This document shows, piece after piece, positions 1,028-25,094 of a DNA stretch of 33,253 nt (positions within the stretch are counted from its first letter, which is position 1; every line of letters begins with the position of its first letter). The notes beneath the pieces were generated by a model. That model ran no database searches. It was not told the DNA's origin and was given only the letters and a program-made list of their open reading frames with translations. Location: NCBI RefSeq assembly GCF_000763805.1, contig NZ_JRKS01000034.1:1-33253 (forward strand), given 5' to 3'. The position numbers were made by a program, and so were the translations under genes. Source of the DNA: Paracoccus sphaerophysae (GTDB lineage: Bacteria > Pseudomonadota > Alphaproteobacteria > Rhodobacterales > Rhodobacteraceae).

Positions 1028-1131
1028 CGCATTTCGATTGCGCCACCTTCCCGGCCCGGTTAGCTTCGGCTCAGGCCCAGTAAATGGGCGCGCATAGTTA
1101 GCGTGCGCATCGCCCGAGCCGGGAGAGCGTG

Positions 1132-1998
1132 ATGGAGAGCGACAGGTCGGAACTTCGCTGGGGCGTCGAGCAGCGCCTCGAGTTCATAGAGTTCCGCCTG
1201 TTCTGGGAGGGACATGTGAACCGCAGCGATCTGATGGACCAGTTCGGGGTCTCGGTGAACCAGGCGTCCACCGACCTGAACCGCTACATCGGATTCGCGC
1301 CGGACAACATGGTCTACGACAAGAGCGCGCGGACCTATGTTCGCGGCTCCGAGTTCAAGCCGCAGTTCCTCGAACCCGACGCCAGCCGCTATCTCGCGCA
1401 GCTGCGGTCGGTCGCTGACGGGATCCTCGACCGCGAGGACTCCTGGATTGCCGATCTCCCACCCTACGCCTCGGCTCCGACCCCGGTGCGCGGCGTCAAT
1501 CCGGTAACGCTCCGCTCCGTGGTAGGCGCCATCCGTCGCTCCGAGGCGATCGAGGTGAAGTACCAGTCTCTGTCCGGCCCGGACCCGCGCTGGAGGTGGA
1601 TTGCGCCCCACGCCATCGCTTTCGACGGCTTCCGCTGGCACACGCGGGCGTTCTGCCTGACCGACGATTGCTTCAAGGACTTCCTGCTCTCACGGATCCT
1701 CGACATCCGCGGATCTCGGGAGAGCGAAACGTCGGCCGACGAAGATCGTGACTGGCATTCCGAGGTCACCCTGGAGATCGGTCCCCACCCTGACCTCTCG
1801 GAGACTCAGGCTAAGGTCATCGCACTCGACTACGGGATGCGGGGCGGCAAGGCGAAGATCAAGGTCAGGCGCGCGCTACTCTATTACGCTTTAAAGCGCC
1901 TCGGTCTCGACACTGATCCGGGCGCACGCACACCTCAAAACCAACAAATCGTCCTGATAAATCGTGTCGATGTAATGGCAGCTATACCCAGCGGTTAG
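1132..1998 (+). CDS. WYL-domain transcriptional regulator (BrxR/CapW-like) of the defence operon
   Basis: 288 residues in the BrxR/CapW architecture: an N-terminal winged HTH at about 14-50 (QRLEFIEFRLFWEGHVNR, then DLMDQFGVSVNQASTDLNRY), a WYL domain at about 127-195 (IEVKYQSLSG, then WIAPHAIAFDGFRWHTRAFC and FKDFLLSRIL), and a C-terminal WCX-like region. The ATG at 1132 is preferred over the overlapping GTG at 1129 because GGGAG at 1121-1125 is then 6 bases upstream. Family members are repressors placed at the head of BREX, CBASS and other defence operons; the WYL domain is thought to sense a nucleic-acid or nucleotide ligand. Here the gene is 79 bases upstream of the ATPase gene on the same strand, so autoregulation and control of the operon are inferred. 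Codon and base composition near its 3' end are visibly more AT-rich than nearby. Confidence 0.85.
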   Translation: MESDRSELRWGVEQRLEFIEFRLFWEGHVNRSDLMDQFGVSVNQASTDLNRYIGFAPDNMVYDKSARTYVRGSEFKPQFLEPDASRYLAQLRSVADGILDREDSWIADLPPYASAPTPVRGVNPVTLRSVVGAIRRSEAIEVKYQSLSGPDPRWRWIAPHAIAFDGFRWHTRAFCLTDDCFKDFLLSRILDIRGSRESETSADEDRDWHSEVTLEIGPHPDLSETQAKVIALDYGMRGGKAKIKVRRALLYYALKRLGLDTDPGARTPQNQQIVLINRVDVMAAIPSG

Positions 1999-2077
1999 AA
2001 AAGCGGCAGTCGACTAAGCAGGGAACGGCGGCTTGGCGCCACGAAATATAAGCAGTGAGGATAGGGGGCTTCGGCGG

Positions 2078-5000
2078 ATGACGAACTCGGAAAACCAAAA
2101 CAATGGACTTTTGTCCCTCTATGATAGCTGCACGCCTCGTGCCGACATTGTTAAAGGGACTTTCAACCCAGAGCTTTTCACCGCGAGCCTGAACCAGGTG
2201 ATGGATAGCTATGCAGGGCAGAAGGTTGCGGAGACCCCCTACACGGATGCCACCGTTTTCTTCGGAGAGGCTACATACCCCACGAGTGGGATGCGCGACC
2301 TGTTGTCCACCGTCCTTCTGAGGGTCGCTGGAGACACGACCGCGAGCGCAATCACGCGCCTTGAGACCGGTTTTGGCGGCGGGAAGACCCACTCCCTGAT
2401 CGGGCTGGTCCACTGCGCCAAGCGTGGGACGGAGATTCGCGACCTGGTTAACCCCCTCTTCCCAGACTTGCCGCTGCCCGCGCCGGGCACCGTCGACGTC
2501 GTGGCGATCGCGGGAGACGTACTCTCCGTGAACAAGCCGTCTGGTGCCGCGCTCATCCCCCACACCCTCTGGGGCGAGCTTGCAATGCAGGTGGGGGGTG
2601 AGACGCTCTACAGAGATTTGGAAGGAGATGCCACCTCGGTTGCAGCGCCCGGCAAGGACTTCTTCAAACGGGTACTCGACGGGCGCAAGGTGATCATCCT
2701 GATCGACGAGCTTGCACAGTACGTCGCCCGGTTCGAGGCAGCGCATCCGGGAAAGGGCGCAACACAAGTCGCCGCCTTTCTAATGTCATTGTCGACCTTT
2801 GCCCGGTCCGCATCCGGCATCGCGGTCGTGATCTCCCTTGCCAGCTCATCGGACGCTTTCGCCCGCCAGAGCGAGAGTCTTGGCTCCGAACTCACACGGA
2901 TCACAGGGTCCGAGGTCGCCCCGGAGGAGGCCGCGCAGCGGGCCGCGCGCGCCGTCGGTGAGACCGAGAGCGTCGTGGCGCGTGATGCGCTCCCAATTAA
3001 GCCAGTCCCTCAGAGCGAGCTTGCTCGGGTTCTCGCCCGCCGCCTTTTTTCGCATATCGATCCCGAGGCGGCAAAAAGGGCCGCGGATGCCTATGCCGCC
3101 CTTTACGCCAGCTCACCGGCCGACCTGCCTTCGGAGGCGAAACAGACCGACTACGCGGACCGGATCCGGGCTAGCTACCCCTTCCACCCGACTTTCCTGC
3201 GGTTCCTGAACGAAAAGCTCGCCTCGATCGAAACGTTCCAAGGCACTCGCGGGGTTCTGCGGGTGATGACGCTTGCGATCAGGCTCCTCTGGCAGAAGCG
3301 ACCGAACGCCCCAATGATCCATGTGGGGCATCTCGACTTCTCGGACCGGCTGATGGCGGACGAGATCGTGGGGAGCCGTCTCAAAGCGGGCGACATGCAG
3401 ATCGTCCTCAACACCGACGTCGGGGGGCCTCAGTCAGATGCGCTCGCCTCGAACCGGAGCCGGGCTCAGATGCGCGATGCCGCCAACCCGCTCCCGTCCG
3501 GGGTTCCATACCACGAGATGACCTGGCGCGTAGTTCTGGTGAACAGCCTAGTTGGCCGGGCCGGTGGGGTGTCCAGCAACCTTTTTGGGATCAACGAGGC
3601 AGACGCCCTCCTCTCCGTGCTGATGCCGGGCCTCCCGGCAACCGCTGTGAAAACCGCCCTCGAGGCGATCCAGAAGCACGCCTACTACCTGCGCGAGGAC
3701 GGAGGGAAGTTCTTTGCGAACACCGACCCGACCATCAACCGGGCCCTCAGCGACATCCGTGAGGGGGTGAAGCGGGATGACGCTTTGCGGCTAATTCTCG
3801 AGGCCTCTCGGAAGGTGATCACGAACCAGAACGGGATCTTCGAGGTTCGAGAAGACGTGACCGCCCCACAAGACATGGCGGAGTCCCCCCGTCGCCCCTC
3901 GATCGGGATCGTTCGGGTCGACGCCCCACGTCTCGTTGTAGATGATTTCATTCAGACACTTGGGAACGGGCAGCCGAGGATATCTCAGAACCATGTGGCG
4001 CTTCTGATCCCGAACACTGTCGCAACAGACCGGGACAGTGACGGGATGTTCGGAGACCAGCGGGCGCAACAGAGCCTAGACAGGCTCCTTGAGCTGGCAC
4101 GAGATGTCCGGGCGATGGAGAAGCTCGCCGCAGATCCCGGTGCCTATGGGCTCACGCTCCGGCAACTTGATGACGATTTCCAAGGTCGCCGAGCGCGGGC
4201 CCGAAACGACCTGAACGTTGCGGTAAGCAAGAGCTACACCCGGCTCGTCTATCCGGGGTCCGACGGCATCGCGATCCGAGAGATCCGGGTAGCTGGCGGT
4301 GAAGGGGGCGCCCCGGTTGCCGAGCAGGTCAAAGAGATCTTGCGAAAGGACGGAGAGGTAATCGAGACGGATCGGGCAGCCACCATGGAGATCGTTCGTG
4401 GCCTCTCCCAGCTCTTCTTCGGCCTTGGCGGGGATACGCCAACTGTCAATGGGATCCGGGACGCGTTCGCGCAGCAGCGGCGCTGGCCAATCCTGGAGAA
4501 CCCAAGCGTCTTGAACCGCGTCATCTCCGCGGGCGTCGAGCGAGGGGTCTGGTGTTTGTTCCGCTTCACCGACGCCAAGAGCGATCGGCCTGACGAGATT
4601 TATGATGCGCAAAACCAGGTCCCGCTGAACGTCGATCTCTCTGCCGATGGGTGGTCTATCATTCAGGTGGCGAAGGCCCGAGCCCGCGGCTGGATCAAAG
4701 GGGAGAAGCCGTCCGAAGACAAGATCAGGGAATGGGCCGCAGAGGTGGCGCGGCAAGCCGCTGAAACCCGCGTCTCCGACATCGTAGAGAAGGTCAAAGA
4801 GAAATCCGAGGCCGTGACAGACGCGGACGTCCTGAACGTTATCCCCAAGGTGATCGCGCAGGACCGATACCTCATTCACGATGGCGAGCCGACGCAGCAA
4901 GAAAAGCCAAACGGCTTTCGTGAAGGTGTCGAAGCGACCATCCGTCCCCCGCGCCCTGATGATGTGCTGATTGTCCGGGCTGAAGCTGCGAGGCGCGGCT

Positions 5001-5338
5001 GGCTCGCGAGCGCGCCCCAGACCCTTCTGATCGAAGAAGAAGGAGACGCACCGAGGGTTCTTCTGCCTTTGGTCAAGCGTCTCGGTCGTGTGGGGGCCAA
5101 TGGCACTAAATCGACAGTGGATGACCTCAGGGTCCAGGCCCTCAAGGTTCCCGGAGGAGCATCGATCGATCTCAAGATTTCAGGTGCAACACCAGAAAGC
5201 CTGAAAGCACTGGATGAGTTGTTCGAAACCCTTATGACGGTTGGCCGGGTCGATGCCGACACATTTGCGTCGATCGAAATTGAACATCCGGATGATGAGT
5301 GCGCCTTGGTGGCAGAGCTCAAGAAAGGCGCTGAATGA
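2078..5338 (+). CDS. DUF499-type AAA+/P-loop ATPase of a DISARM/BREX-like defence operon
   Basis: 1086 residues. A Walker A motif (ETGFGGGKTHS, about 96-106) and a Walker B motif (VIILIDEL, about 205-212, followed by AQY) mark an N-terminal P-loop ATPase of the DUF499 type, whose signature is a glycine-rich GxGGGKTH loop. The large remainder has no motif I can name, apart from a charged helical stretch near residues 870-930 that may be a coiled coil. The ATG at 2078 is chosen over the upstream TTG at 2033 because a purine-rich GGGGG lies just upstream and the DUF499 similarity begins after it. DUF499 proteins recur in defence islands beside DUF1156 methyltransferases, much as BrxC-type ATPases accompany PglX. 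The stop overlaps the next start (ATGA), so translation is coupled. Nucleotide hydrolysis and a regulatory or DNA-translocating role are inferred. Confidence 0.85.
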   Translation: MTNSENQNNGLLSLYDSCTPRADIVKGTFNPELFTASLNQVMDSYAGQKVAETPYTDATVFFGEATYPTSGMRDLLSTVLLRVAGDTTASAITRLETGFGGGKTHSLIGLVHCAKRGTEIRDLVNPLFPDLPLPAPGTVDVVAIAGDVLSVNKPSGAALIPHTLWGELAMQVGGETLYRDLEGDATSVAAPGKDFFKRVLDGRKVIILIDELAQYVARFEAAHPGKGATQVAAFLMSLSTFARSASGIAVVISLASSSDAFARQSESLGSELTRITGSEVAPEEAAQRAARAVGETESVVARDALPIKPVPQSELARVLARRLFSHIDPEAAKRAADAYAALYASSPADLPSEAKQTDYADRIRASYPFHPTFLRFLNEKLASIETFQGTRGVLRVMTLAIRLLWQKRPNAPMIHVGHLDFSDRLMADEIVGSRLKAGDMQIVLNTDVGGPQSDALASNRSRAQMRDAANPLPSGVPYHEMTWRVVLVNSLVGRAGGVSSNLFGINEADALLSVLMPGLPATAVKTALEAIQKHAYYLREDGGKFFANTDPTINRALSDIREGVKRDDALRLILEASRKVITNQNGIFEVREDVTAPQDMAESPRRPSIGIVRVDAPRLVVDDFIQTLGNGQPRISQNHVALLIPNTVATDRDSDGMFGDQRAQQSLDRLLELARDVRAMEKLAADPGAYGLTLRQLDDDFQGRRARARNDLNVAVSKSYTRLVYPGSDGIAIREIRVAGGEGGAPVAEQVKEILRKDGEVIETDRAATMEIVRGLSQLFFGLGGDTPTVNGIRDAFAQQRRWPILENPSVLNRVISAGVERGVWCLFRFTDAKSDRPDEIYDAQNQVPLNVDLSADGWSIIQVAKARARGWIKGEKPSEDKIREWAAEVARQAAETRVSDIVEKVKEKSEAVTDADVLNVIPKVIAQDRYLIHDGEPTQQEKPNGFREGVEATIRPPRPDDVLIVRAEAARRGWLASAPQTLLIEEEGDAPRVLLPLVKRLGRVGANGTKSTVDDLRVQALKVPGGASIDLKISGATPESLKALDELFETLMTVGRVDADTFASIEIEHPDDECALVAELKKGAE

Positions 5339-5943
5339 CGGCCAAGAAAGGGCGTCCGCACAGACATGCGGAACTCTACAAGGCGCTGCACGAGGGGCAC
5401 CTCTCCGCGGCGCCCTTCGCGTTGCGGATCACGCGTCACAACGACGTGCCTCCGCCGGTCCTCGTGATCAAGGAGCGGCGGGCCCGTGACGGGGACGAGG
5501 GGGATGCGCGGACAGGACATCTTCAGGACCGCGGCCGCCTGCACGGGGACAGTCTCCGCCGTCTCCTGCCGGTCGTCCGAGCGATCGCGTCCCGAGCCCG
5601 CAACGAGAATGACGTTCCGCTGGAGGTCGACGCCTTCCTGTCCGAGGAGGGAATGCGCACGCAACGGACCCTTGTCTTGGATGAGGAGGCCGGGGCGAAA
5701 CTCGGGATCATCTTCAAGCTGCAGGAGCGTCTGAACGACCTTGACCGCTCGGAGCTCCTGTCGCGCCGGGTCGCAACCTTCTCCCGCGAAGAGGCCGTCT
5801 ATTGGTTCTCCCGCATCACCCACTACGGAACGGTCGCGAACCGCTGGGCCGTATCCGGCCTGAGGGTGATGCTCTGCGGACAGGGAAGTGGTCAGGACGC
5901 CGAGGTCACAGCGATGCTCGATAAGCTGCGCTCGCGTCAATAA
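5335..5943 (+). CDS. Unrecognised 202-residue component of the DUF499/DUF1156 operon
   Basis: Its ATG overlaps the ATPase stop by 4 bases, and the methyltransferase gene follows 19 bases later, so it belongs to the operon. I do not recognise the family with certainty. Small DUF proteins (for example DUF3780) occupy this slot in related clusters, but this one does not show a signature I can match. Visible features are a basic N-terminus, a central segment of the kind LRRLLPVVRAIASRA, and a more conserved-looking C-terminal part with REEAVYWFSRIT and NRWAVSGLRVML at about 145-185. There is no membrane segment, nuclease motif or metal cluster. It could be an adaptor between ATPase and methyltransferase or a specificity factor; this is a guess from position only. 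Confidence 0.7.
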   Translation: MTAKKGRPHRHAELYKALHEGHLSAAPFALRITRHNDVPPPVLVIKERRARDGDEGDARTGHLQDRGRLHGDSLRRLLPVVRAIASRARNENDVPLEVDAFLSEEGMRTQRTLVLDEEAGAKLGIIFKLQERLNDLDRSELLSRRVATFSREEAVYWFSRITHYGTVANRWAVSGLRVMLCGQGSGQDAEVTAMLDKLRSRQ

Positions 5944-5962
5944 TTTGGAAAGAGGGAATGGT

Positions 5963-8900
5963 ATGAAGGATTTGTCGAACGACCTGCGGCTCATGGAGAG
6001 CGGCTTCCCTTGCCACCAGGTGGGCGCGGAAACGCAACGAGAGCGCGGATCCAGCTCGGCCCTGCCACCCCTCTACTTCCTCCATGTCTGGTGGGCGCGC
6101 CGTCCCCTGATCCCGTCCCGAGCCGCTATCCAGGCGTCCCTCCTCGGGTCCGATGCCGATCCAGACGCCTTCGTCCGGGACCTCGGGATCATGAAGAAGG
6201 TCGCGATCGTCGGCGACCAGGAATGGACCCTCGTCGGGAAACCGCTGGCGCATGTGCACCGGACCGCTTCAGGCGAGTCCCTTCTTCTCGACGAGAAGGG
6301 AATGAAGTTCCTCGAGGCGGAGGTCAAACGGCGCGCGCGCAACCGGGACACCATCGACCGGCTGACCTCCTATGATCCGGCCTTCTCTCGTGATCCCGTC
6401 GTGACACGCTGGGCGCAGGACTCTGTCGCGTTTCGGCTGCCGCTCCCGCCGGAAGGCACTCGGCTCCGCGTTGAAGACCGCGCGGCCGACCCGGCGCATG
6501 TCAATGACCGTGTCGTCTTCGCCAAGCTCGACCGAGTGAAGAAGGCGCTGGGCGAGACCATCCGGTGGGATCCGGAGGACCTTTACGCTTACGACCGCGC
6601 CTATGCGAACTCTCCGGAATACCGGCCGACCGGGCTGACGATTCTGGACGCGACTGCCGGCGGAGGCAGCATCCCATTCGAGGCGCTGCGCCTCGGACAC
6701 ACCGTGATCGCCAACGAGCTGAACCCGGTCGCGACGACGATCCTTCACGCGACGCTCGATTTCCCGGCCCGGTTCGGCCCCGAGCTGCTGGATGATATTA
6801 AGGAATGGGGCGACCGGCTCGTGTCTGAGGTCGAAGCAGAGATGCTCGACGTCACGCCCCGCTCCCCGTTGCCGGAGGCCGAGCGTCAGAAGCTGGAGCG
6901 GGTCGTGCGCGGAGATCCGGAGCTGATGCTTCTCTACGGCCAGACAGAGTATGACCAGAACGGGATCCTTTACTGCCGCATGGTCAAGTGTCCGTCCTGC
7001 GGGGGGGAGGCGCCGCTCCTCAACAGCTTCTGGCTGCTCAAGGTTCCGGGTGACCAGTGGGGGGTTCGAGTTATTCCCAATAAGGACGGAACTGTCGATT
7101 TCGGTGTGTATGAGATTTCGGGGGGTCGAGGCCCTAATGGGGAAAACCCCGAAGACTCGACGGTTGCCCGAGGTGTCGGTCAGTGCGTCCATTGTCGCCA
7201 GGCGATCTCTGGCGACGAGATCAAGGCGCAGGCGCGCGGTGAAAGCCGACATGGAAGCTGGTGGGATCGTGTTTACGCGGTCCACGCTGCTCGTTTCGAG
7301 CCCAAAATGGACGCCCGAGGTCGTCCTCAGAGATATGCCACAGGCGAGCGCGCGGGAGAGATCAAAACCGGGAAGGTGAAGTTCTTCCGCACGCCGACAG
7401 AACAAGATGAGGCCGCACTGGCGGAAGCGAAACGACGTCTGGATAAGAACTGGGCTCGATGGGAACGCGAAGATCTGATTCCCACGGAAGCCTTTCCAGA
7501 CGGTAACGACATGCGTCCCGTCACCTACGGCATGCCGAGATGGTGCGACATGTTCGCGCCTCGTCAGCTCCTCGGACACCTTACGCTTGTTGAAAAGCTC
7601 CGCGACTTGCAGTCCGAGATCCGGGGCGCACTTGGCGAGGTCCGCGGAAACGCTGTCATCACCTACCTTCAGTTCATGGTCGACAAGTTCGTCGACTACA
7701 ACAGCCGCCAGACCCGATGGGAGTTCACCCGTGGCGTGGTTAAAGGCACATTCGGTCGGCATGACTACTCGCTGAAATGGACCTATGGCGAGATGCCCTA
7801 TGCTGGTCCTGCGAGCGGGCTGCGGTGGGCCCTTTCGCAAGTTCTTGATGCCTACCAAGGCATCTCGCAGCTTGCCGTTTCGGTCCATGAGGCCCAGGGA
7901 AAAGATCTGCCCTTGAAGATCATTAACGGGTCCGCGGGAAATATGTCCGAGGTTGCGACCGGCTCCGTCGACCTCGTCTGTTTCGACCCGCCCTATTACG
8001 ACAACGTCCAATACGGGGAGCTGTCGGACTTCTACTATGTCTGGCAGAAGCGCGGCCTGCGTGACGTCTTTCCCGGCTTGTTCTCTCGCCGTCATGTCAA
8101 CAAGAAGGACGAGGCGGTCGCCAACCCCGCCCGGGACGGGTCTGCCGCGAACGCAAAGGCCGCTTATGAGCGGATGATGGGTGAGATCTTCGCTGAGTGC
8201 CGCCGAGTCCTCAGTGACGACGGCGTCATGACTCTGATGTTCACCCATAAAAAGCAGGAAGCGTGGGAGACCCTGACCCGGTCCCTGATCGAGTCAGGCT
8301 GGGTCATCACGGCCTGCATGCCGGTGGAATCCGAATCCGGATACTCGACCCACCAGATGAACATGGCCTCCGCTGCGTCGACCATCTTCATCACCTGCCG
8401 CAAGCGGATCGACGAGGACGGGGAACCGGCCGCCTGGCAGGGAATCGGCGGGACCGGGGTCGCCGCCCGCATCCGCGCGGCAGTTCGGGACGGCCTGGCC
8501 GAGTTCGACCGTCTGAACCTCAGCCCGGTCGACGAGATGATCGCCAGCTTCGGGCGGGCGCTTCAGGTCCTGTCCGAGCGCTGGCCGGTGTATGACGGGG
8601 ACGACGTGGTGTCGCCCGTTCAAGCGATGACCGCCGCCAGCGCCGTCGTGGCTGCCCACCAGATCACCCGGATCACGGAGGGGCGCCTGACGGTCGAGGA
8701 GCTGGACACGGAGACCGGCGTGGCGCTCACCATCCTCGGCGCTTTCGGAACGGCCGAGTTCGCCTTCGATGACGCACGGAACCTCGCGAACGCTCTCAAC
8801 GTCGCGATCGAGGGGAAGAGCGGGAACTATACCGTCGCGGATCGCAGGGTGGGCCTCGCGACCCAGCAGCCCGGTGCGACCTATGCCGCGCCCCTCGTTA

Positions 8901-9181
8901 AGTCGGGTTCGAAGGTACGCCTCGCGGCACCGGAAGAGCGGGCCCCTGCGCGCCTTGAGAAACCCCAGACTGCTTGGGACCGGCTTCACGGTCTGATCAC
9001 CGCCTATCGAAAGGGGGAAGACGTCCTCGTCCGGGCCTACTTCGAGAAGCATTGTCTGCCGCAGGCGCAACTGCTGCGAGACCTGCTGGAAGTTTACAGG
9101 GCCGAGATCGGTGATGAGCGACTCCAGAAAGAGGTCGACTGGGTACGCTTTGCCCTTGAGAGCTTCGGGGGCGCGCAGTGA
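5963..9181 (+). CDS. DUF1156-type DNA methyltransferase (amino-methyltransferase)
   Basis: 1072 residues. The N-terminus carries the DUF1156 signature LPPLYFLHVWWARRPL (about 34-49). An AdoMet-binding motif I follows (LDATAGGGSIPFEALRLG, from about 228), then a zinc-ribbon-like pair CPSC (343-346) and CVHC (408-411), and a catalytic motif IV DPPYYDNV starting at D675, with a further methyltransferase strand SDDGVMTLMFTHKK. Motif order I then IV with DPPY indicates an exocyclic amino methyltransferase, most likely N6-adenine. The ATG at 5963 has AGAGGGA about 6 bases upstream; the frame is open further upstream but only inside the previous gene. The stop overlaps the helicase start (GTGA). In the operon it would mark host DNA as self, as PglX does in BREX and DrmM in DISARM; the specificity is unknown. 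Confidence 0.88.
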   Translation: MKDLSNDLRLMESGFPCHQVGAETQRERGSSSALPPLYFLHVWWARRPLIPSRAAIQASLLGSDADPDAFVRDLGIMKKVAIVGDQEWTLVGKPLAHVHRTASGESLLLDEKGMKFLEAEVKRRARNRDTIDRLTSYDPAFSRDPVVTRWAQDSVAFRLPLPPEGTRLRVEDRAADPAHVNDRVVFAKLDRVKKALGETIRWDPEDLYAYDRAYANSPEYRPTGLTILDATAGGGSIPFEALRLGHTVIANELNPVATTILHATLDFPARFGPELLDDIKEWGDRLVSEVEAEMLDVTPRSPLPEAERQKLERVVRGDPELMLLYGQTEYDQNGILYCRMVKCPSCGGEAPLLNSFWLLKVPGDQWGVRVIPNKDGTVDFGVYEISGGRGPNGENPEDSTVARGVGQCVHCRQAISGDEIKAQARGESRHGSWWDRVYAVHAARFEPKMDARGRPQRYATGERAGEIKTGKVKFFRTPTEQDEAALAEAKRRLDKNWARWEREDLIPTEAFPDGNDMRPVTYGMPRWCDMFAPRQLLGHLTLVEKLRDLQSEIRGALGEVRGNAVITYLQFMVDKFVDYNSRQTRWEFTRGVVKGTFGRHDYSLKWTYGEMPYAGPASGLRWALSQVLDAYQGISQLAVSVHEAQGKDLPLKIINGSAGNMSEVATGSVDLVCFDPPYYDNVQYGELSDFYYVWQKRGLRDVFPGLFSRRHVNKKDEAVANPARDGSAANAKAAYERMMGEIFAECRRVLSDDGVMTLMFTHKKQEAWETLTRSLIESGWVITACMPVESESGYSTHQMNMASAASTIFITCRKRIDEDGEPAAWQGIGGTGVAARIRAAVRDGLAEFDRLNLSPVDEMIASFGRALQVLSERWPVYDGDDVVSPVQAMTAASAVVAAHQITRITEGRLTVEELDTETGVALTILGAFGTAEFAFDDARNLANALNVAIEGKSGNYTVADRRVGLATQQPGATYAAPLVKSGSKVRLAAPEERAPARLEKPQTAWDRLHGLITAYRKGEDVLVRAYFEKHCLPQAQLLRDLLEVYRAEIGDERLQKEVDWVRFALESFGGAQ

Positions 9182-12100
9182 AAGAAGCAGCCGGCGCGAA
9201 CGAGACGCCGGCGTCCTTCCGGGACGTCGAGTGGCGGGACGAGTACCGGACGTCAGAGATCCGGCCCGGCGAGCCCGCGACCGATATCCTGAAGGAGTTC
9301 TATATCCCGGCCTTGGAGCGGTCGGTCCGCTATGACCGCGTCGCCGGGTACTTCCGGTCCTCGTCCCTCGCAGCCGCCTCTCAGGGGTTCACCGCCTTCG
9401 CTCGCAACGGGGCGAAGGCCCGCTTCATGGTCGGTTGCGATCTGGACGCGGAGGACGTGAAGGCGGCGCTGAGGGGTGCTGATGAGGCGCTTGTCGCACA
9501 TCTGACGGCCGCCCTTGAGAATGACGGGTCCTGGAGCGCGGAGACGGTCCGGGGCGTCGACCTGTTCGCCTATTTGGTCTCCAAGGGGCTCCTCGAGGTG
9601 AAGGTGGCCTTTCGGGTTCACAAGGGAACCGGCGATCCGCTCTCCGTCGAGTCCACGGCCGACGGGTACGTTCACGAGAAATGGGCCGTGTTCGTGGACG
9701 GAGAGGGAAACGTGATCCGGATCGACGGGTCCCTCAACGAGTCTAAGACGGCCCTGTCGATCAACGCCGAGAACATCCTGCTGCACTGTTCGTGGTGGGA
9801 TGAGCGGAGCCGTCGCCAGACTGGGAAAGCCCTGAAAGACTTCGATCACCTCTGGCGTCATGGGAGCGAGGGGATCCGCGTCATGGCTTTGCCAGAGGCG
9901 GTCCAGGCGCGTTTGATCCGAATGGGACAGGACGTGATCGAGCCGAAGGAGATCGACGGGACGGAGGCACCCCCTCCGCCGAAGGATCAGGAAAGCCCAT
10001 TCGCCGCGCTCGCCCCTGTCGATTATCTCCGGTGGCGCCTCATCAAGGACGGGCCGCGCTTGCCGGGCGGGCGGTTCGTCGGCATCGAGACCGCACCGGT
10101 TGTCCCCTGGCCGCACCAGGCCTTCGTCGCCCGCCGCCTGGTCACTTCCTGGCCGCACAGCTTCCTGATGTGCGACGAGGTGGGGCTCGGGAAAACGATC
10201 GAGGCGGGCCTAGCGATCCGGTCCCTTACCCTGTCTGGCATCGCCTCGAGGGTGCTGATCGCCTCTCCCGCCTCGCTGACACGACAATGGCAGCGCGAGA
10301 TGAAGTCGAAGTTTCTGCTCGACTTCGCCCGGACGGCCCCGCGGGGGCGAATGAGCCATGAGCGCCTGGATGAGGACTCGACCCCGTTCGAAGTTTCCGA
10401 AGGGGGCCTTCTCGCCCCGGACCTGGTGATCGCCTCGACCGGCTTGCTAACGCACAGGACTAGGCGCGGCGAGGTCCGGGGTGCCAAGGGCTGGGATATT
10501 TCCCTCGTGGACGAGGCCCACTATGCGCGTGCGGTCCACCGGCAGAACCAGCTCTACTCACTCATAGATGAGGTGATCCGCCCGAAAGCCCGCGCCCTTC
10601 TGCTCGCGACAGCAACCCCAATGCAGCTCGCGATGCAGGAGGCATTCGACCTGATGCGGCTCACCGGACGGGTCGGGAGCTTCGGGCTCGATGACGACAT
10701 CTCGCGACAGTATTACGAGGCGGTTCAGGAGTTCGTTCGGGGCCGTGGCCGGATCTCCGAGGCGACACTGGAGTTCCTGCGCCGCGCGATTCTCGAGATC
10801 AAGCTGCTCGACCCGGAGTACTGGACATTCATTATGAGCGCTTACCGGTCGCCAGCAGATCAGCGGACCGTGGCTCGTTGGGTCGAGGAGGCGCGCCCAT
10901 TCCCGGCCGGAGACTGGCGACTTATCGCCCGGGTTCTGCGCGCGGCCGCCCCGCTCTCGCGCGTCATGTTGCGCCACACCAGGGACCTGCTGCGGCTCTA
11001 CCGAGACAGCGGAAAGCTGAACGCAAACTTGGCCGAAAGGCATGTGCGTCCCCTCGACCCGATCAACTTCTCCCCGACCGAGCGGCGCGTCTACGACGCG
11101 CTCGAGGCATACTGTCGGGATCTCGATGCCCGCGTTCGGGCCTCCGCCCGCCAGGAGGACCAGCGACGCGTCGCCTCCGTCGGCTTCTATCTAAGCTTCC
11201 TTAGGCTCCGTTTCGCTTCCAGCCTCCATGCGATCCGCAAGACGCTGGAGCGGCGGACAGAGAAGGTGAAAGCCACCCTTCGGGCTCATCAGCACGCCGG
11301 GTTCAATCCGACCGACGAGGAGCTGGAAGAAGCCGTATTCGAGGGCGATGATGAGGGGGACGAGGTCGCCGTCGATGCTCTGCTGGACGGGCGCACCGAA
11401 TCCGACCTCCTTTGGGAGCAGGAGGCGCTTCGGGGTCTATTGGATCGCCTCGACGAGTTGGTCGGTGTGCCGTCAAAGCTCGACCGGCTCCTGTCCGAGT
11501 TGAACGCGCGGCGCCAAGGCAGCCGGTTTCGACAGACGGTCGTCTTCACTCGTTTTAAGGACACACTTGATCACTTGGTCGACGAGCTCCGCTCCCGGAT
11601 GCCTAGCGCGCTGGTCGGCACCTTCTCCGGGGCGGGCGGCAGCCGTTACGACCCTGCCGCTGGAAAGATGATCAGCACCACACGACTCGAGATCACCCAA
11701 AGCTTCGTCCGCGGGGATATCGACGTCCTGCTGTGTACGGACGCCGCGGCTGAAGGGCTGAATCTCCAAACCGCAGACCTGCTGATAAACTTTGACCTTC
11801 CTTGGAACCCGGCGAAGGTGGAGCAGCGGATCGGGCGCATCGACCGGATCGGCCAGAAGTATCATGAGATCTTCGTCGCGAACTACGCCTACGCCGGGTC
11901 GGCGGAGGAGCGGGTCTACGGGCGGCTCCTTTCCCGTCTCGCGGAGGCGGGCCTGATAGTTGGCCCACAACAAATCGCACTGCTGCCGGTCACCGAGGCA
12001 GACTTCCGAGCCCTCGAGAACCCTAGTGTCTCGGCCGACGAGCTCCGGCGGATAGAGACAGAAGCGGCCGAACGGCTGCGTCGATCCAAAGCGGCGGCTG

Positions 12101-13041
12101 AGGCCCTCGAGATTCCGCCAAAGGAGCTGCAGGAGTTCTACCGGGCCTGGGAGCGGTCGGGCGACTTCGCCGCCCCGGTCTCGTTGGCGGACATTGATGT
12201 CGCGCTGACTTCCCTCGCAAAAGTGGCCCCGCATCTTCTCTCCGTGACCGAACATCCCGGCATCTTTGCGCTTCGTTACGAGGACGGACGAGTTTCTCAT
12301 ATCACCGCGTCACGGGAGCTTCTTGATCGGCCTCCGCCTGAGGTTCGGACTACGCTTGAGTTCGCGTCCTACGGCGCTCACGCCTTCGATCATCTCTTGG
12401 AACAGCTCCCGGATTTGCACGCAAGGTGGATGGCGCGTGTGAGTGTTTCCGGGGCACTCGGAGACAATAGGATCGAGAGAGTCGGCTTCTGTGTTGCCAC
12501 CACGAACGGTCTGGTCAGTGCGCTACGGGTCGCTGACCTTAATGGGGTTGAGATTGATCAGAATGCCATGGTTCGAGAGGCCGACTCGACGCCGGTCGAA
12601 GCAGAGCTGGCAAAGGCGCTAGCGGAGGAGATCCGCGCCGTCGAGAAGGGTATCGATGACGTCAACGCGAACAGGCGCGCGTCCGCAGAGCAGCTGGTCC
12701 TATCCCACGAGATCGCTGCCGCATATCTGGAGACCGCAACCGGCGCAAACGACGCGGATGATTTGCACCGTCGTCTACGGGATGAACTGATACCGAACAG
12801 GCCCCACGGTCTCCTAGTCCGAATGCAGCCGGCTCGCCTCGCTCATCGGACACCGATGCTTTCTGAGACCTCATTTCGAGGGATTCCCGGCGATGAGGCC
12901 AACGTGCACATTTCGCCCCCGCAGCTAAAGGCAGCTGAAATCAAGATTGACGGGGTGATCCGAGAGATGCGGCGTCAGGGGGAAGAAATGTTTCGAGAAG
13001 AGGCAGCAGCTCGCCTGAGGCGCAAGGTGGCCAGACTCTGA
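9178..13041 (+). CDS. PLD-like nuclease domain fused to SNF2/RapA-type helicase
   Basis: 1287 residues starting at a GTG that overlaps the methyltransferase stop. The N-terminal ~200 residues form a phospholipase-D-like domain: YDRVAGYFRSSSL, then H166-x-K168 with downstream D and GSLNES, the HxK/GSxN half-motif of PLD nucleases. A superfamily 2 helicase follows: motif I DEVGLGKTIE (333-342), DEAH (445-448), motif III ATATPM, motif IV VVFTRFKDTL, motif V DAAAEGLNLQ and motif VI QRIGRIDRIGQ (about 883-893). The last ~350 residues are helical and charged. The layout resembles RapA/SNF2 proteins and joins in one chain what DISARM encodes as a helicase and a separate PLD protein (DrmC). It is the presumed effector that loads on and cuts or remodels unmodified DNA. 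Only one HxK copy is seen, so active cleavage would need a dimer. Confidence 0.88.
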   Translation: MKEAAGANETPASFRDVEWRDEYRTSEIRPGEPATDILKEFYIPALERSVRYDRVAGYFRSSSLAAASQGFTAFARNGAKARFMVGCDLDAEDVKAALRGADEALVAHLTAALENDGSWSAETVRGVDLFAYLVSKGLLEVKVAFRVHKGTGDPLSVESTADGYVHEKWAVFVDGEGNVIRIDGSLNESKTALSINAENILLHCSWWDERSRRQTGKALKDFDHLWRHGSEGIRVMALPEAVQARLIRMGQDVIEPKEIDGTEAPPPPKDQESPFAALAPVDYLRWRLIKDGPRLPGGRFVGIETAPVVPWPHQAFVARRLVTSWPHSFLMCDEVGLGKTIEAGLAIRSLTLSGIASRVLIASPASLTRQWQREMKSKFLLDFARTAPRGRMSHERLDEDSTPFEVSEGGLLAPDLVIASTGLLTHRTRRGEVRGAKGWDISLVDEAHYARAVHRQNQLYSLIDEVIRPKARALLLATATPMQLAMQEAFDLMRLTGRVGSFGLDDDISRQYYEAVQEFVRGRGRISEATLEFLRRAILEIKLLDPEYWTFIMSAYRSPADQRTVARWVEEARPFPAGDWRLIARVLRAAAPLSRVMLRHTRDLLRLYRDSGKLNANLAERHVRPLDPINFSPTERRVYDALEAYCRDLDARVRASARQEDQRRVASVGFYLSFLRLRFASSLHAIRKTLERRTEKVKATLRAHQHAGFNPTDEELEEAVFEGDDEGDEVAVDALLDGRTESDLLWEQEALRGLLDRLDELVGVPSKLDRLLSELNARRQGSRFRQTVVFTRFKDTLDHLVDELRSRMPSALVGTFSGAGGSRYDPAAGKMISTTRLEITQSFVRGDIDVLLCTDAAAEGLNLQTADLLINFDLPWNPAKVEQRIGRIDRIGQKYHEIFVANYAYAGSAEERVYGRLLSRLAEAGLIVGPQQIALLPVTEADFRALENPSVSADELRRIETEAAERLRRSKAAAEALEIPPKELQEFYRAWERSGDFAAPVSLADIDVALTSLAKVAPHLLSVTEHPGIFALRYEDGRVSHITASRELLDRPPPEVRTTLEFASYGAHAFDHLLEQLPDLHARWMARVSVSGALGDNRIERVGFCVATTNGLVSALRVADLNGVEIDQNAMVREADSTPVEAELAKALAEEIRAVEKGIDDVNANRRASAEQLVLSHEIAAAYLETATGANDADDLHRRLRDELIPNRPHGLLVRMQPARLAHRTPMLSETSFRGIPGDEANVHISPPQLKAAEIKIDGVIREMRRQGEEMFREEAAARLRRKVARL

Positions 13042-13080
13042 ATCGCTAATCCTTTCTCCTACCAATATCGACGGCCTGCA

Positions 13081-13098
13081 GCATCGCTTCAGCGATGC
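13081..13098. repeat. Palindrome at the defence operon/prophage junction
   Basis: GCATCGCT and AGCGATGC form perfect 8-bp arms around TC, directly followed by the 8-base palindrome GCGATCGC at about 13098-13105. It lies 40 bases after the helicase stop and overlaps the stop codon of the short remnant ORF read from the other side. No T-tract follows on either strand, so it is not a clear terminator. It could be a breakpoint or recombination scar. Confidence 0.5.
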
Positions 13099-13163
13099 GC
13101 GATCGCCTCGAACTTGTGCTCGGGCATGTGAACGAATCCATCTTCGGGTCTTTGGGGTGCCAT
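13089..13163 (-). pseudogene. 24-residue ORF, probable 5' remnant of a small prophage gene
   Basis: Starting at the ATG at 13163 the frame reads MAPQRPEDGFVHMPEHKFEA and ends four codons later at a TGA inside the junction palindrome. It has a strong ribosome binding site (GGGAGG, 7 bases upstream, within the end of the lysozyme gene), which is odd for a spurious ORF. The segment MPEHKFEAIA recalls the N-terminus of small prophage proteins such as DUF6127-type proteins, which are about 100 residues long. That comparison is from memory and uncertain. If right, the rest of the gene was lost when the prophage end was joined to the island. Confidence 0.45.
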
Positions 13164-13175
13164 GGCAAGCCTCCC

Positions 13176-14000
13176 TCAGCCGATCTTGCAGCCCCAGAAG
13201 GACGTGTGATCGGCGGCGAAGTAGCCGTCCGCGACCCGGAAGTATCCTTGCAGCTCGACGGTATCGCCGGCCGTCAGCGGCACCATGGTCTGCAGCCAGA
13301 TCGCGGTGGCGAGCGAGACGTGGGTGGCGGAGATTTCGCCTAGAGAGCCGCGGATTTCGGTCGTGCCGTTCAGCACCAGCCGAACGAGCCAGCCGGTCGG
13401 CGCGTCGGGCGCAGGATCGAGGGCCGGCGGCCTCGGCAGCGGCGACCGCCCCAGCAGCGCCAGCGCCTCATCCTCGGTCAGTCGGCGGATCGGCCGCGAG
13501 AAGTCCACCCGGCCCGTGCGATCCACGGACCAGACCGGGATCGTGCCGCCGGGATAGCGGCCATGGCGGAACAGATCGCGCTCCGCCTCCCGGCGGGGGA
13601 TGATGGAGGCCGGTCGCCGCCAGTTCAGAAACGCGTCGGCGGCTGCAACGCGATTGCCGGCATTGAGGTGCCGGGTCAGCGCGGCCTTCGCGATGCCCCC
13701 GGTGTTGTAGTGAAAGCTGACCAGCGCATCGAACTCGTGCGGTGCCAGCGGCACCTTCACGGCACGCAGGACGGCTGTCTCGTAGCGCGCGAGGTCGGCG
13801 CGGAAGACCCGAAACGCCTCGCGGATCCCGGCATCGAGATCGGCGGGCATGCCGCGCGGCATGGTGGCCGGATGGGGCGGCCCGGCCGCGGTGGTGTGGC
13901 CGATGCCGAAGGTCCAGACCTGTTTCACATCGAGATAGGGCCCGGGCACGAGTCCTTCGTGCCGGACGAGGGCCAGAAGGCCCCGGTCGGTCATGTGCAT
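13176..14000 (-). CDS. Phage endolysin, GH24 lysozyme with C-terminal accessory domain
   Basis: 274 residues. The N-terminal domain has the T4-lysozyme triad with exact spacing: E15, D24 and T30 in RHEG, YLD and WTFGIGHTT, followed by FDALVSFHYNTGG typical of GH24 muramidases. The lysozyme part ends near residue 155. The C-terminal ~85 residues end in SFWGCKIG and contain GDTVELQGYF, which resembles the small beta-rich domains at the end of some phage tail or C1q-like proteins; this could bind the cell surface. No signal peptide is evident, so export would depend on the holin upstream. The ATG at 14000 is 4 bases after the preceding stop, without a clear Shine-Dalgarno, so coupling is likely. 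It hydrolyses peptidoglycan during lysis. Confidence 0.85.
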   Translation of the reverse strand: MHMTDRGLLALVRHEGLVPGPYLDVKQVWTFGIGHTTAAGPPHPATMPRGMPADLDAGIREAFRVFRADLARYETAVLRAVKVPLAPHEFDALVSFHYNTGGIAKAALTRHLNAGNRVAAADAFLNWRRPASIIPRREAERDLFRHGRYPGGTIPVWSVDRTGRVDFSRPIRRLTEDEALALLGRSPLPRPPALDPAPDAPTGWLVRLVLNGTTEIRGSLGEISATHVSLATAIWLQTMVPLTAGDTVELQGYFRVADGYFAADHTSFWGCKIG

Positions 14001-14136: not shown

Positions 14137-14479
14137 CGCCGCCGCCTTCATTGGCGCGGCGCAGGCGGGCGAGCAGCATCTCGATGAAGGCTGGCCCGAA
14201 GACTCCCACGAGATAGGCGGCCGACCCGGCAGCGCCGCCCGCGGGGATCGCTTCGGGCGGAAGGCTGAGCCAGGCGGTGATCACGGCCATGGAGAGGCTG
14301 CCCATCCCGGCCGCGATCAGCCCGCCGAGCAGGATATGCCGCAGCGCATCGCGCAGCCGCATCTTCGTGGTCAGCGCGTTGGTGGCGCCGCCGAGCGCGC
14401 CCCAGGCAGCGAGGATCACGGCGGTCGAGGCTGCGAGCTCGCGCAGCACGGCCGCAACGAAGCTGCCGGTGTCGTTCAT
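14129..14479 (-). CDS. Phage holin
   Basis: 116 residues with about three hydrophobic segments (VILAAWGALGGATNAL at 18-33, HILLGGLIAAGMGSLSMAVITAWL at 48-71, and AAYLVGVFGPAFIEMLLARL near the end) and a charged C-terminus (RRANEGGGDE). This is the layout of LydA/phage-holin-family proteins found beside lysozymes in Rhodobacterales prophages. The start codon overlaps the DUF2460 stop (ATGA). It would form inner-membrane lesions that release the lysozyme. Confidence 0.8.
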   Translation of the reverse strand: MNDTGSFVAAVLRELAASTAVILAAWGALGGATNALTTKMRLRDALRHILLGGLIAAGMGSLSMAVITAWLSLPPEAIPAGGAAGSAAYLVGVFGPAFIEMLLARLRRANEGGGDE

Positions 14480-15102
14480 CGCCGGATCTCCAGAAGCGGA
14501 ATGGAGGTGATCGAGCCGAGCCGCTCGAGGTCGAGCGTCACGTCGAGCACGTCGGTGTCGAAGCGGACCGGCACGTCGAACTCGAAGCCCGCGGTGATGG
14601 CGGTGCCAGCGCCCGGCGCGACGCTGAAGGTGACGACGCCGGTGGCGGTGTCGACCGACCAGCCGGAGGGCTGCTCGACCCCGGCGAGCGCAATGCGCAC
14701 GATGCCCGCCACCGGCTTGGCGATGGCGCGCGACCAGGATTGCGCGCCGGAGGCGTAGCGCTTCACCAGCTGGAAGGCGGTCGTCGTGCCGTCGCCGGTG
14801 CCGATCGTCTGGTCGGTCGGCGAAGGTGTGCCAGAGGGAAGGCAGGACTTGTGGTCGCCCCAGTCCTTGAACCGGAAGCCATGTAGGCGACCGTTCCGCG
14901 CCTCGAAGAAGGCGACCACCGCCGCCAGATCGTCAGCGCGGCGGATGCCGTAGGCGACATCGTAGCGGCGGCGCGAGTTCGCCCAGCTGGCGTTGCGCTC
15001 CTCGTCGCCAGAGGCGAGCTCGACGATCTGCGTGCGCCGCTCCGGGCCGCCCCGCGCGCCCCGGCTGACGTTGTCGGGAAACCGGACCTCGTGAAACGCC
15101 AT
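14476..15102 (-). CDS. DUF2460 distal tail protein (GTA gp12-like)
   Basis: 208 residues. The N-terminus AFHEVRFPDNVSRGARGGPERRTQIVELASGDEERN and RYDVAYGIRRADDLAAVVAFFEARNGRLHGFRFKDWGDHKS region is the DUF2460 hallmark, known from gene 12 of the Rhodobacter gene transfer agent and from many phages, where it forms the distal tail hub. The C-terminal half holds the usual beta-rich repeat with GDGTTTAFQLVKRY. The ATG at 15102 overlaps the tape measure stop (TGATG); a GTG three bases earlier is the alternative. In related phages DUF2163 and a peptidase gene come next, but here the holin follows immediately. Confidence 0.9.
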   Translation of the reverse strand: MAFHEVRFPDNVSRGARGGPERRTQIVELASGDEERNASWANSRRRYDVAYGIRRADDLAAVVAFFEARNGRLHGFRFKDWGDHKSCLPSGTPSPTDQTIGTGDGTTTAFQLVKRYASGAQSWSRAIAKPVAGIVRIALAGVEQPSGWSVDTATGVVTFSVAPGAGTAITAGFEFDVPVRFDTDVLDVTLDLERLGSITSIPLLEIRR

Positions 15103-17519: not shown

Positions 17520-17531
17520 CGGTCAGACTCC

Positions 17532-17560
17532 TTGCTTTCGCCGTATAGGCGTCTTACGTT
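17532..17560 (+). promoter_or_regulatory. Candidate promoter/operator of the toxin-antitoxin pair
   Basis: TTGCTT (17532-17537) and TACGTT (17555-17560) are spaced by 17 bases and could act as a weak sigma-70 promoter. The palindrome CGCC-GTATA-GGCG (17539-17551) lies between them, where a VapB-type antitoxin with an AbrB fold would be expected to bind for autoregulation. The hexamers match consensus at only about half of the positions. Confidence 0.35.
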
Positions 17561-17589
17561 TATGCCATCGATCAAGTGAAGGTATGACC

Positions 17590-17802
17590 ATGGCCGAGAC
17601 CGCGACCCTGTCCTCGAAGTTCCAGATCTCGATTCCCAAGGCGATCCGGGCCGCCCAGCACTGGGAGGCCGGTCTGACCTTTGCCTTCACCCCGAAAGGC
17701 ACGGGCGTCCTGCTTGTGCCGGTGCCGAAGCGGGAGGCGTTGAAGGGGCTCGCGCGCGGCGCGTCCGCCACCGATTATCGCGACCGGACGGAACGGTTCT
17801 GA
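17590..17802 (+). CDS. vapB: VapB-like antitoxin with AbrB/SpoVT DNA-binding fold
   Basis: 70 residues. The N-terminal swapped-hairpin signature TATLSSKFQISIPKAIR is that of AbrB/MazE/VapB antitoxins, and the C-terminal part GLARGASATDYRDRTERF is the usual toxin-binding tail. GAAGG at 17578-17582 is 7 bases from the ATG at 17590 and only 1 base from the ATG at 17584, so 17590 is chosen. Its stop overlaps the vapC start (TGATG). It should neutralise the PIN toxin and repress the promoter. The pair is on the strand opposite to the surrounding tail genes. Confidence 0.85.
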   Translation: MAETATLSSKFQISIPKAIRAAQHWEAGLTFAFTPKGTGVLLVPVPKREALKGLARGASATDYRDRTERF

Positions 17803-18182
17803 TGATCCTCGTCGACACGTCGGCTTGGATCGAGTGGCTCATCGGCTCGCCGACCGGCGAGAAGCTGTCCGAACATCTGCCCGAACAGGCCGAGTGGCTC
17901 GTCCCGACAATGGTCCAGCTCGAATTGGCGAAATGGCTGACGCGCGAGGTCGGCGAGGACAAGGCGGATCAGGTCATCGCCTTCACGCAGGTCTGCCATG
18001 TGGTGCCGCTCGACACCGAGATCGCGCTGGCGGCGGCGGAGGCGTGCCGGGAGCACAAGCTCGCTACTGCCGACGCGATCATCTTCGCAACCGCCCGCGC
18101 GCAGGGCGCGACGCTCCTGACCTGCGACGCACATTTCGAGGGACTGCCCGGCGTCACGCTGATCGAGAAGATCAAGGCCTGA
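17802..18182 (+). CDS. vapC: VapC-like PIN-domain ribonuclease toxin
   Basis: 126 residues. The PIN acidic residues are in place: D5 in ILVDTSAWIEW, E41 in QLELAKW, D91 in TADAIIFA and D109 in TCDAHFEG. Such toxins cleave tRNA or rRNA when freed from the antitoxin. Translation is coupled to the antitoxin gene. The last 11 bases overlap the 3' end of the tail chaperone frame, which is read from the other strand, so the cassette is fitted tightly between two essential tail genes. Roles as plasmid-like stabiliser, superinfection defence or simple cargo are all possible. Confidence 0.87.
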   Translation: MILVDTSAWIEWLIGSPTGEKLSEHLPEQAEWLVPTMVQLELAKWLTREVGEDKADQVIAFTQVCHVVPLDTEIALAAAEACREHKLATADAIIFATARAQGATLLTCDAHFEGLPGVTLIEKIKA

Positions 18183-18851: not shown

Positions 18852-18853
18852 CG

Positions 18854-19795
18854 TCAATAAACCTCGATGTCGTTGATCAGGGTTGCGGTGCACATCCGGC
18901 CGACGACGCTGTCGCGCGCCGCCTGCCAGTCGAACGTCGCCTGCACGCCCTGCGGCCCGGAGATCTCGATGCGCGGGCGCGGCAGGTAGACGGCGTGCAC
19001 CGTGAACGTGAAGCTCTCGCCCGAGGGCAGGACGTAGGCGAATTCCATCTCGCAAGGGTCGCCGTTGATGGCCTGCGTCACCAGCGTCTGGTCGGCGAAG
19101 CGGACCTCGATCCGACCGGTGAGCGCGGCGATGGACGGGTCCGCGCCGTCGATCCTGCCATCACTCCGGATCGTCTCGATCCGGTCGAGATTGTTGGCAT
19201 AGGTGATCTCGGCCGAGACCACATTGCCGAGCGCCGTGCCATTGCGCGTGATCGACCCGTTGAAATGGCCGAAGCGCTTCAGCTCCAGCGCGGCAGGCGT
19301 TCCGGCGCCGGTGGTCGTGCCCACCGTCTCGCCCTGTGCAACCAGCCGCGCGGTTGCGGTCAGCAGGCCCGAACGCTGCATCTGCCAGGTGATCTGGTCG
19401 AGCACGCAGCCCGAATACATCGCGTAGCGCGGCACCTCCGGCATGCCGGTCTCGATCGACATGCTGGGCAGCGTCCAGGAGCCAGACTGGAACTCGTGGC
19501 TGTACGGGGCCTCCGCGCCCGTGGTCGTGGGCGAGCCGAAGGCCGCCTTCAGCCAGAAGCCGAAGGCCTCCGCGTCGAGCGGCACCACGACATCGCCGTC
19601 GGCCGTGACCGCGTCCTTGATCGGCGCCAGCGGATCGCGGCCGTACCCCAGCAGCTCCGAGTTCAACAGCGGCTGCTCGGCGCCGAGCGAGGTGCTGGCG
19701 AAGGGCATGCGGGTGTAGCCGCCAACAGGCGGCGTTCCATAGGTATTCTCGAAGGCAAGCGCCATCAGCGCCCGCGCCCCCTGGGCTCGTGCCAT
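18854..19795 (-). CDS. Phage tail tube protein
   Basis: 313 residues starting MARAQGARALMALAFENTYG, with GGYTRMPFAST and PLDAEAFGFWLKAAFG in the N-terminal half and an Ig-like or beta-rich second half ending in TLINDIEVY. This matches the phage tail tube (TTP) family of alphaproteobacterial siphophages. The start has AGGAG 7 bases upstream. The gene ends 3 bases before the chaperone start. It polymerises around the tape measure to form the tail shaft. Confidence 0.8.
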   Translation of the reverse strand: MARAQGARALMALAFENTYGTPPVGGYTRMPFASTSLGAEQPLLNSELLGYGRDPLAPIKDAVTADGDVVVPLDAEAFGFWLKAAFGSPTTTGAEAPYSHEFQSGSWTLPSMSIETGMPEVPRYAMYSGCVLDQITWQMQRSGLLTATARLVAQGETVGTTTGAGTPAALELKRFGHFNGSITRNGTALGNVVSAEITYANNLDRIETIRSDGRIDGADPSIAALTGRIEVRFADQTLVTQAINGDPCEMEFAYVLPSGESFTFTVHAVYLPRPRIEISGPQGVQATFDWQAARDSVVGRMCTATLINDIEVY

Positions 19796-25090: not shown

Positions 25091-25094
25091 GAGG

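Follow-up and report, generated by a model that had tools for sequence, protein, structure and literature searches.

Contig NZ_JRKS01000034.1 of the alphaproteobacterium Paracoccus sphaerophysae, analyzed here over its full length of 33,253 nucleotides (the window), carries a gene for a WYL-domain regulator followed by four genes that encode a DUF499 AAA+ ATPase, a protein of 202 amino acids, a DUF1156 DNA methyltransferase and an SNF2-family helicase with a fused nuclease-like domain of the phospholipase D (PLD) type (Table 1). Judged from the protein families present, this set likely constitutes a restriction-modification-like (RM-like) anti-phage system of the kind related to bacteriophage exclusion (BREX). 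Its new part is the small protein, a member of the family DUF7680, which stands in the place of DUF3780 and does so in a separate lineage.

Operon organization and conservation

A first-pass annotation of the sequence had described a regulator-headed operon of four genes, and every checked detail of this arrangement proved correct by direct reading and Pfam searches. The ATPase and DUF7680 genes meet in ATGA (5335-5338), 19 bases (5944-5962) separate the DUF7680 and methyltransferase genes, and the methyltransferase and helicase genes meet in GTGA (9178-9181). The accompanying calls of a DUF499 ATPase with the Walker A sequence GxGGGKTH and of a DUF1156 methyltransferase with a DPPY motif are borne out by Pfam and motif conservation, and the call of a protein that fuses PLD HxK and SNF2 motifs by the HKD motif, hhalign and the Pfam SNF2 match. 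The second gene product had been described as a 202-residue unknown; its size and place stand, but it does belong to a named family, as it matches Pfam DUF7680 (PF24728) with 123 bits, the cut-off being 24.

The four genes are conserved as a unit across bacteria. A profile made from 36 DUF7680 proteins identified 106 loci in the genome collection, the best 80 of which were kept and combined with five viral contigs to give 85 loci (L008-L092; handles of this form denote loci fetched for comparison). Synteny was counted over 83 of them (L008-L090), two viral loci with short DUF7680 proteins (L091, L092) being excluded. ATPase and DUF7680 genes occur together in 77 of the 83 loci, DUF7680 and methyltransferase genes in 71, and all four genes in 54, where order and strand are the same in 54/54. 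Because the order is conserved in every complete locus, the arrangement is not due to chance. Truncation at contig or fetch ends can account for 21 of the 29 loci that are incomplete. Co-occurrence of the four genes beyond close relatives, whose absence had been set in advance as the finding that would speak against a defense system, is thus present in 54/83 loci and in distant bacteria. By record title, the hosts comprise Alpha-, Beta- and Gammaproteobacteria, “Deltaproteobacteria,” Clostridia and other Bacillota, Planctomycetaceae, Phycisphaerales, Synergistetes, Ignavibacteriales and a Petrimonas, some genera being placed in the classes to which we take them to belong.

Further defense genes are found inside some of these operons (10 of the 93 frames found in gaps were scanned). 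GmrSD type IV restriction genes lie between the methyltransferase and helicase genes in 7 of the 55 loci that have both (e.g., L041 16545-18290 and L022 13827-15767), an AAA_15 gene is present in six loci and a Schlafen/AlbA_2 gene in one. A further DUF7680 locus of this class (L153), apparently decayed or poorly assembled, has its methyltransferase and helicase broken up into several frames. The Desulfonema magnum chromosome carries a DUF7680 gene (L085 9920-10594) with no ATPase, methyltransferase or helicase match within the fetched 10 kb on each side.

Relationship of DUF7680 to DUF3780

DUF7680 occupies the slot held by DUF3780 in Type-2 BREX-related (BR) systems. Shorter DUF7680 proteins of 142-160 residues are found in the same slot in Rhodococcus (102 bits), Nostoc (163 bits) and Sinorhizobium medicae (152 bits), and a weak DUF7680 match occurs at the equivalent position in the archaeon Natrinema (short-form matches are the best 120 of 309). 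The helicases of the short-form loci L194, L200 and L196 also carry the HKD motif. The structure predicted for DUF7680 (predicted local distance difference test, pLDDT, 91.2) has its core elements in the same order as DUF3780, and kinship between the two families finds weak support at the sequence level from a broadened profile. This kinship would be expected if the operon were an ordinary Type-2 BR system whose DUF3780 had diverged past recognition, in which case DUF7680 would be no new component and no separate lineage name would be due. Such a reading is possible but somewhat unlikely. An hhalign comparison of DUF3780 with mainly long-form DUF7680 did not rise above nulls. A DUF3780 profile gave 0 matches at E 1e-3 in the window and the 85 DUF7680 loci, and DUF7680 profiles gave none with E below 2 in DUF3780 loci. 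The alignment for the DUF3780 model was made without L176 (stop codon), L177, L179, L183 and L190, and the matches of the DUF3780 profile are the best 120 of 3639. Moreover, profiles of the ATPase and methyltransferase of DUF7680 systems rank most sampled proteins of the Type-1 BR systems, including Hma, above Type-2 proteins.

Phylogenetic trees of the three large proteins point in the same direction. They are unrooted trees made quickly from a hand-picked sample, with flags on long branches, and cover long and short DUF7680 forms, DUF3780 systems and Hma systems. Twenty-three DUF7680 loci were tried in the ATPase tree and 22 kept, and 21 each entered the methyltransferase and helicase trees, together with 11, 11 and 9 DUF3780 systems, respectively. 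For reasons of length or lack of a match, L071 and L154 were dropped from the ATPase tree and L147 from the methyltransferase tree; ten loci were dropped from the helicase tree (L195, L158, L159, L137, L139, L140, L142, L143, L154 and L147). In all three trees, the long DUF7680 forms make up one side of a branch starred at 100, and the DUF3780 systems, without any DUF7680 system, one side of another. The Hma group has a support of 29 in the ATPase tree and is not set off by any single branch of the methyltransferase tree. Short DUF7680 forms stand apart in the ATPase tree (91), adjoin the long forms in three of four cases in the methyltransferase tree (97) and, in the helicase tree, lie beside DUF3780 systems (87). 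All three trees place the long-form DUF7680 lineage apart from the DUF3780 and Hma systems sampled and do not give its sister type. Another DUF499 group, L144-L147, sits on a separate long branch of the ATPase tree. The genes of L144 encode, in order, a helicase, a protein of 306 residues with no clear family, a methyltransferase and an ATPase.

The host genome also holds a complete DUF3780 system, i.e., a canonical Type-2 BR system, on another contig (L125 on contig C13; Table 1) and in the same gene order. The PADLOC models DUF499, DUF1156 and PLD_Helicase score this system at about 1400 bits and the window at 106, 112 and 196 bits. Since one genome has both systems, DUF7680 and DUF3780 offer a natural pair for studying the role of the small subunit. 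The DUF3780 system is followed by a GIY-YIG/DUF4357 gene (together L125 6377-18421) and adjoins a tail gene like those of gene transfer agents (GTA_TIM). DUF3780 systems are also found on named plasmids: nine of 20 plasmid records with a DUF3780 match were fetched, as were eight of 135 with a DUF499-like ATPase, and the core order is preserved in all nine DUF3780 systems, some of which have additional genes inserted. In one of them (L159), the helicase is annotated as two genes. Two DUF3780 systems contain inserted genes for VapC-type toxins, located ahead of the helicase or the methyltransferase gene (L156 13743-14168; L158 9648-10384, with antitoxin).

Catalytic motifs and proposed mode of action

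The motifs on which activity would depend are retained throughout the family. Counted over long frames only (72 ATPases, 63 methyltransferases and 41 helicases, the last including the window), the Walker A sequence FGGGKTH is invariant in 72/72 ATPases, while the glycine preceding it varies (11/72), and DPPY is invariant in 63/63 methyltransferases. Four methyltransferase cysteines, retained in 62-63 of 63, make up one zinc-finger-like site. The helicases show an invariant DEAH box and, numbered from the GTG start, invariant H166, K168, D174, N187 and E188 of the HKD motif in 41/41 full-length relatives. The PLD domain of the window helicase had no match in a Pfam scan. When compared with nine helicases of DUF3780 systems, one of which carries a Pfam PLDc_2 call, its N-terminal region gave an hhalign probability of 99.5 (E 1.7e-22), by which the HKD domain of the window is recognized as homologous to that of Type-2 systems. 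The earlier reading of a defense-type operon with a helicase and a nuclease-like domain in one protein is supported.

Extending from the families to activities, target motif, complex and phenotype, the following working can be proposed. The methyltransferase, aided by the DUF499 ATPase, would methylate a short motif in host DNA (predicted N6-adenine). DUF7680 may act as a small adaptor that couples the ATPase to the methyltransferase and reports whether a site is modified, a reader role like that proposed for DUF3780. At an unmodified site, the ATPase would pass the DNA to the SNF2 motor, which would translocate, and the HKD domain would cut or nick. With one HKD motif per chain, this domain probably acts as a dimer, dimer formation being familiar from HKD proteins. 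Regulators of the CapW/BrxR type are repressors, and the WYL protein would keep expression low until infection or DNA damage. An RM-like model of this kind has been argued for BR systems (PMC12839542, main text), and the proposal also draws on the analogy with BREX, in which methylation depends on partner proteins (PMC13326643).

Several points weigh against the RM-like reading. The DUF7680 model finds no match in the PDB at E <= 0.001, which makes the reader role an analogy only, and the literature searched yielded no experiment on any DUF7680 system. The methyltransferase also matches Pfam N6_N4_Mtase, but below the cut-off, and the single HKD per chain would require dimerization. Eight of the 83 loci (L013, L027, L031, L063, L080, L085, L088 and L089) hold DUF7680 without the full set and are not explained by contig or fetch ends. 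In addition, the available text of PMC13326643 reports that BREX methylation requires BrxB, BrxC and PglZ besides PglX and that BREX restriction occurs without wholesale degradation of phage DNA; consequently, the RM-like reading may fail in its last step.

The latter observation would also suit protection without cutting, i.e., a block of replication as in BREX or PbeABCD, with the HKD domain being structural, regulatory or directed against the host (abortive). For PbeABCD, whose PbeA is an HKD-helicase, protection that involves no cutting of viral DNA has been reported (PMC6459918, available text), and residues 13-460 of the window helicase score 185 bits on a PADLOC PbeA model. However, the invariance of H, K, D, N and E in 41/41 helicases argues for catalysis, and the available text of PMC10853773 argues that PbeA-type systems do cleave. 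We regard protection without cutting as unlikely and retain the RM-like reading.

DUF7680 genes on viral contigs

One of the five viral contigs, an IMG/VR contig (L090), carries the whole four-gene set, and a terminase is present on it. It alone among the five, which are fragments, has a DUF499 gene; in the other four none was found (Table 1). One stand-alone DUF7680 gene (L089) adjoins a phage DNA methyltransferase gene; its contig also encodes ribonucleotide reductase as well as virion-endolysin-like and tail-spike-like proteins. The contigs of L091 and L092 have a terminase; the contig of L088, 10 kb long, encodes a phage-type helicase and gave no terminase match. Of 34 conserved DUF7680 family residues, L088 keeps 34 and L089 28, while the short L091 and L092 keep 17 each. 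As a guess, these stand-alone genes might serve as decoys or in counter-defense. Because four of the five viral contigs lack a recognized DUF499 gene and one DUF7680 gene lies beside a phage methyltransferase gene, it can be imagined that DUF7680 is the self/non-self checkpoint of a fourth BREX-related lineage and that the phage copies jam this checkpoint, an idea that is tentative and quite unlikely to hold as a whole. If the phage copies are indeed decoys, they would indicate which subunit is a worthwhile object of mimicry for phages.

Table 1. Positions of the operon genes and associated elements in the window and of the related genes in other loci.
Feature	Sequence	Position	Strand	Evidence and remarks
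WYL transcriptional regulator, CapW/BrxR family	Window	1129-1998	+	Pfam WYL; start GTG 1129 or ATG 1132
DUF499 AAA+ ATPase (BrxC-like), C-terminal DUF7744	Window	2033-5338	+	Pfam; Walker A GFGGGKTH; alternative ATG start 2078
DUF7680 subunit, 202 aa	Window	5335-5943	+	Pfam PF24728; second operon slot, the DUF3780 slot of Type-2 BR
DUF1156 DNA methyltransferase	Window	5963-9181	+	Pfam DUF1156; ATG start 5963; DPPY motif; four kept cysteines
HKD (PLD-type) nuclease domain fused to SNF2-family helicase	Window	9178-13041	+	Pfam SNF2 and Helicase_C; HKD motif; hhalign
Cassette common to other genera	Window	1061-13382	+	blastn, continuous DNA match to Pseudothioclava arenosa
Candidate operator palindrome TAAATGGGCGCGCATAGTTA	Window	1081-1100	unstranded	Upstream of WYL gene
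ATPase	L125	13781-18421	-	
DUF3780	L125	13145-13777	-	
Methyltransferase	L125	10118-13144	-	
PLD-helicase	L125	7358-10093	-	
Stand-alone viral DUF7680	L088	6373-7080		
Stand-alone viral DUF7680	L089	9929-10555		
Stand-alone viral DUF7680	L091	9824-10285		
Stand-alone viral DUF7680	L092	9914-10354		

Genomic context and mobility

The operon and its regulator gene appear as a sharply bounded cassette. In blastn comparisons with L008-L010, positions 1061-13382 are 91.2% identical in Pseudothioclava arenosa, 1150-13042 are 86.7% identical in Gellertiella hungarica and 1690-13031 are 85.9% identical in Aquibium sp. The cassette ends are sharp in these three other genera, and no further flank matches were found in the fetched L008-L010 DNA, except for a 211-base stretch in L010. 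Within the 61 genomes of the genus searched, DUF7680 occurs only in the window's own genome, and in the phylum in 4 of the 398 genomes searched, own genome included. Patchy occurrence together with cassettes 86-91% identical in other genera points to horizontal spread of the type typical of defense systems.

The end of a gene for the plasmid-partition protein RepB lies upstream of the cassette at the contig edge (1-420), and downstream, on the minus strand (14479-33000), a phage head-tail module with genes for terminase, portal, capsid, tail tube, tape measure and DUF2460 is found, the terminase being about 60% identical to those of Rhodobacter phages. No further tail genes were recognized between DUF2460 and the operon cassette. 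In this setting, the operon might be carried as cargo by a phage or plasmid and work for that element instead of the cell, through superinfection exclusion or competition between plasmids, and the presence of the whole set on L090 would be in line with this. The common cassette, however, stops at 13042-13382, short of the phage genes, and recurs in other genera, so the operon appears to move alone; moreover, the contig of 33,253 bases has no terminal repeat, and the element cannot be closed. Service to an element is therefore improbable. A frame at 702-974 resembles an excisionase-type helix-turn-helix protein, as identified by eye only, and two DNA methyltransferase genes are located at 30689-33000 within the phage module.

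Regulator and candidate operator

The WYL protein is assigned to the CapW/BrxR family by its matches to solved structures, i.e., CapW (9c5g, 234 bits; 7tb6, 215 bits) and BrxR (7t8k, 153 bits), of which BrxR is treated in PMC13326643 (available text). It has a similar length to these transcription factors. The candidate operator upstream of its gene, the palindrome TAAATGGGCGCGCATAGTTA, does not stand out from shuffles in the window alone, with 888 of 2000 shuffles being as good; L008 and L009 each have an imperfect palindrome at roughly the corresponding offset. The site is offered as a lead only. A WYL-domain gene is also found directly upstream of the DUF3780 system of Deinococcus psychrotolerans (L158 4720-5691).

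Comparison with known systems

Systems that combine DUF499, a methyltransferase and an SNF2-nuclease protein have already been described (PMC12839542, PMC7641849 and PMC8565338, in the text available of each), and the DUF3780 version is covered by NCBIfam and PADLOC models. The novelty claimed by the first-pass annotation at the level of the whole system is not supported, and its picture of a complete system that discriminates self from non-self stands as an inference. Its statement that PglZ and DrmB are lacking holds, as PF08665 (PglZ) and PF09369 (MZB, formerly DUF1998, which we take to mark DrmB) each gave 0 matches in the host genome; the mark of Type-3 BR and BREX systems and that of DISARM are hence both absent.

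Three DUF499-centered types of BREX-related systems are defined in the main text of PMC12839542. Type-1, in which Hma is counted, has a helicase with a PD-(D/E)XK nuclease, Type-2 combines an HKD-helicase with DUF3780, the latter present as a standalone protein in 98% of Type-2 taxa, and Type-3 has PglZ and mostly also iSTAND. DUF7680 is named nowhere in the literature searched, and DUF3780 only in PMC12839542, whose main text does not mention DUF7680; its supplements lie outside the search, and its authors may class these loci under another type.

The archaeal COG1743-DUF499-SWI2/SNF2 systems with PLDc or PD-(D/E)XK (PMC7641849) share three components and the PLDc option with the window and differ in that DUF7680 is not mentioned in the text available. 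PbeABCD, a system with a CxC ABC-ATPase (PMC6459918 and PMC10853773, available text), shares the HKD-SF2 helicase fusion of PbeA, but the other three genes of the window encode DUF499, DUF7680 and DUF1156 proteins. Pfam detects no ABC ATPase (PbeC) among the five window proteins, and among the PADLOC matches listed (25 of 43 families for the helicase), PbeA is the only Pbe match.

Type-1/Hma systems consist of the helicase HmaA, the methylase HmaB and the ATPase HmaC (PMC8565338 and PMC12839542, available text). The ATPase and methyltransferase of the window score best on PADLOC models HmaC (271 bits) and HmaB (212 bits), and the helicase scores 196 bits on PLD_Helicase. However, sampled three-gene Hma loci are ordered helicase-methylase-ATPase, and in L197 and L198, which are annotated, no gene intervenes. 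The only one of these helicases to be scanned fully, that of L129, has NOV_C and no Pfam PLD match, and all three large proteins of the window fall outside the Hma group in the trees.

Type-2 BR systems are alike in gene order, in a DUF499 ATPase with intact Walker A, a DUF1156 methyltransferase with DPPY, an N-terminal HKD domain fused to an SNF2 helicase, the lack of PglZ and a small second-slot protein of the alpha+beta kind, and the window fits Type-2 in everything tested for content except DUF3780. It differs in that the small protein is DUF7680, in that the ATPase, methyltransferase and helicase lie outside the sampled DUF3780 groups in three trees, and in that NCBI cut-offs are missed several-fold: the anti-phage models NF042962-NF042964 (DUF499, DUF1156 and PLD) score 157, 178 and 302 bits, where their cut-offs are 1200, 1000 and 1100. 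The published three-type scheme is marked by DUF3780, a PD-(D/E)XK nuclease or PglZ (PMC12839542, main text), and the DUF7680 lineage, far below the NCBI cut-offs and found in distant bacteria, falls outside it.

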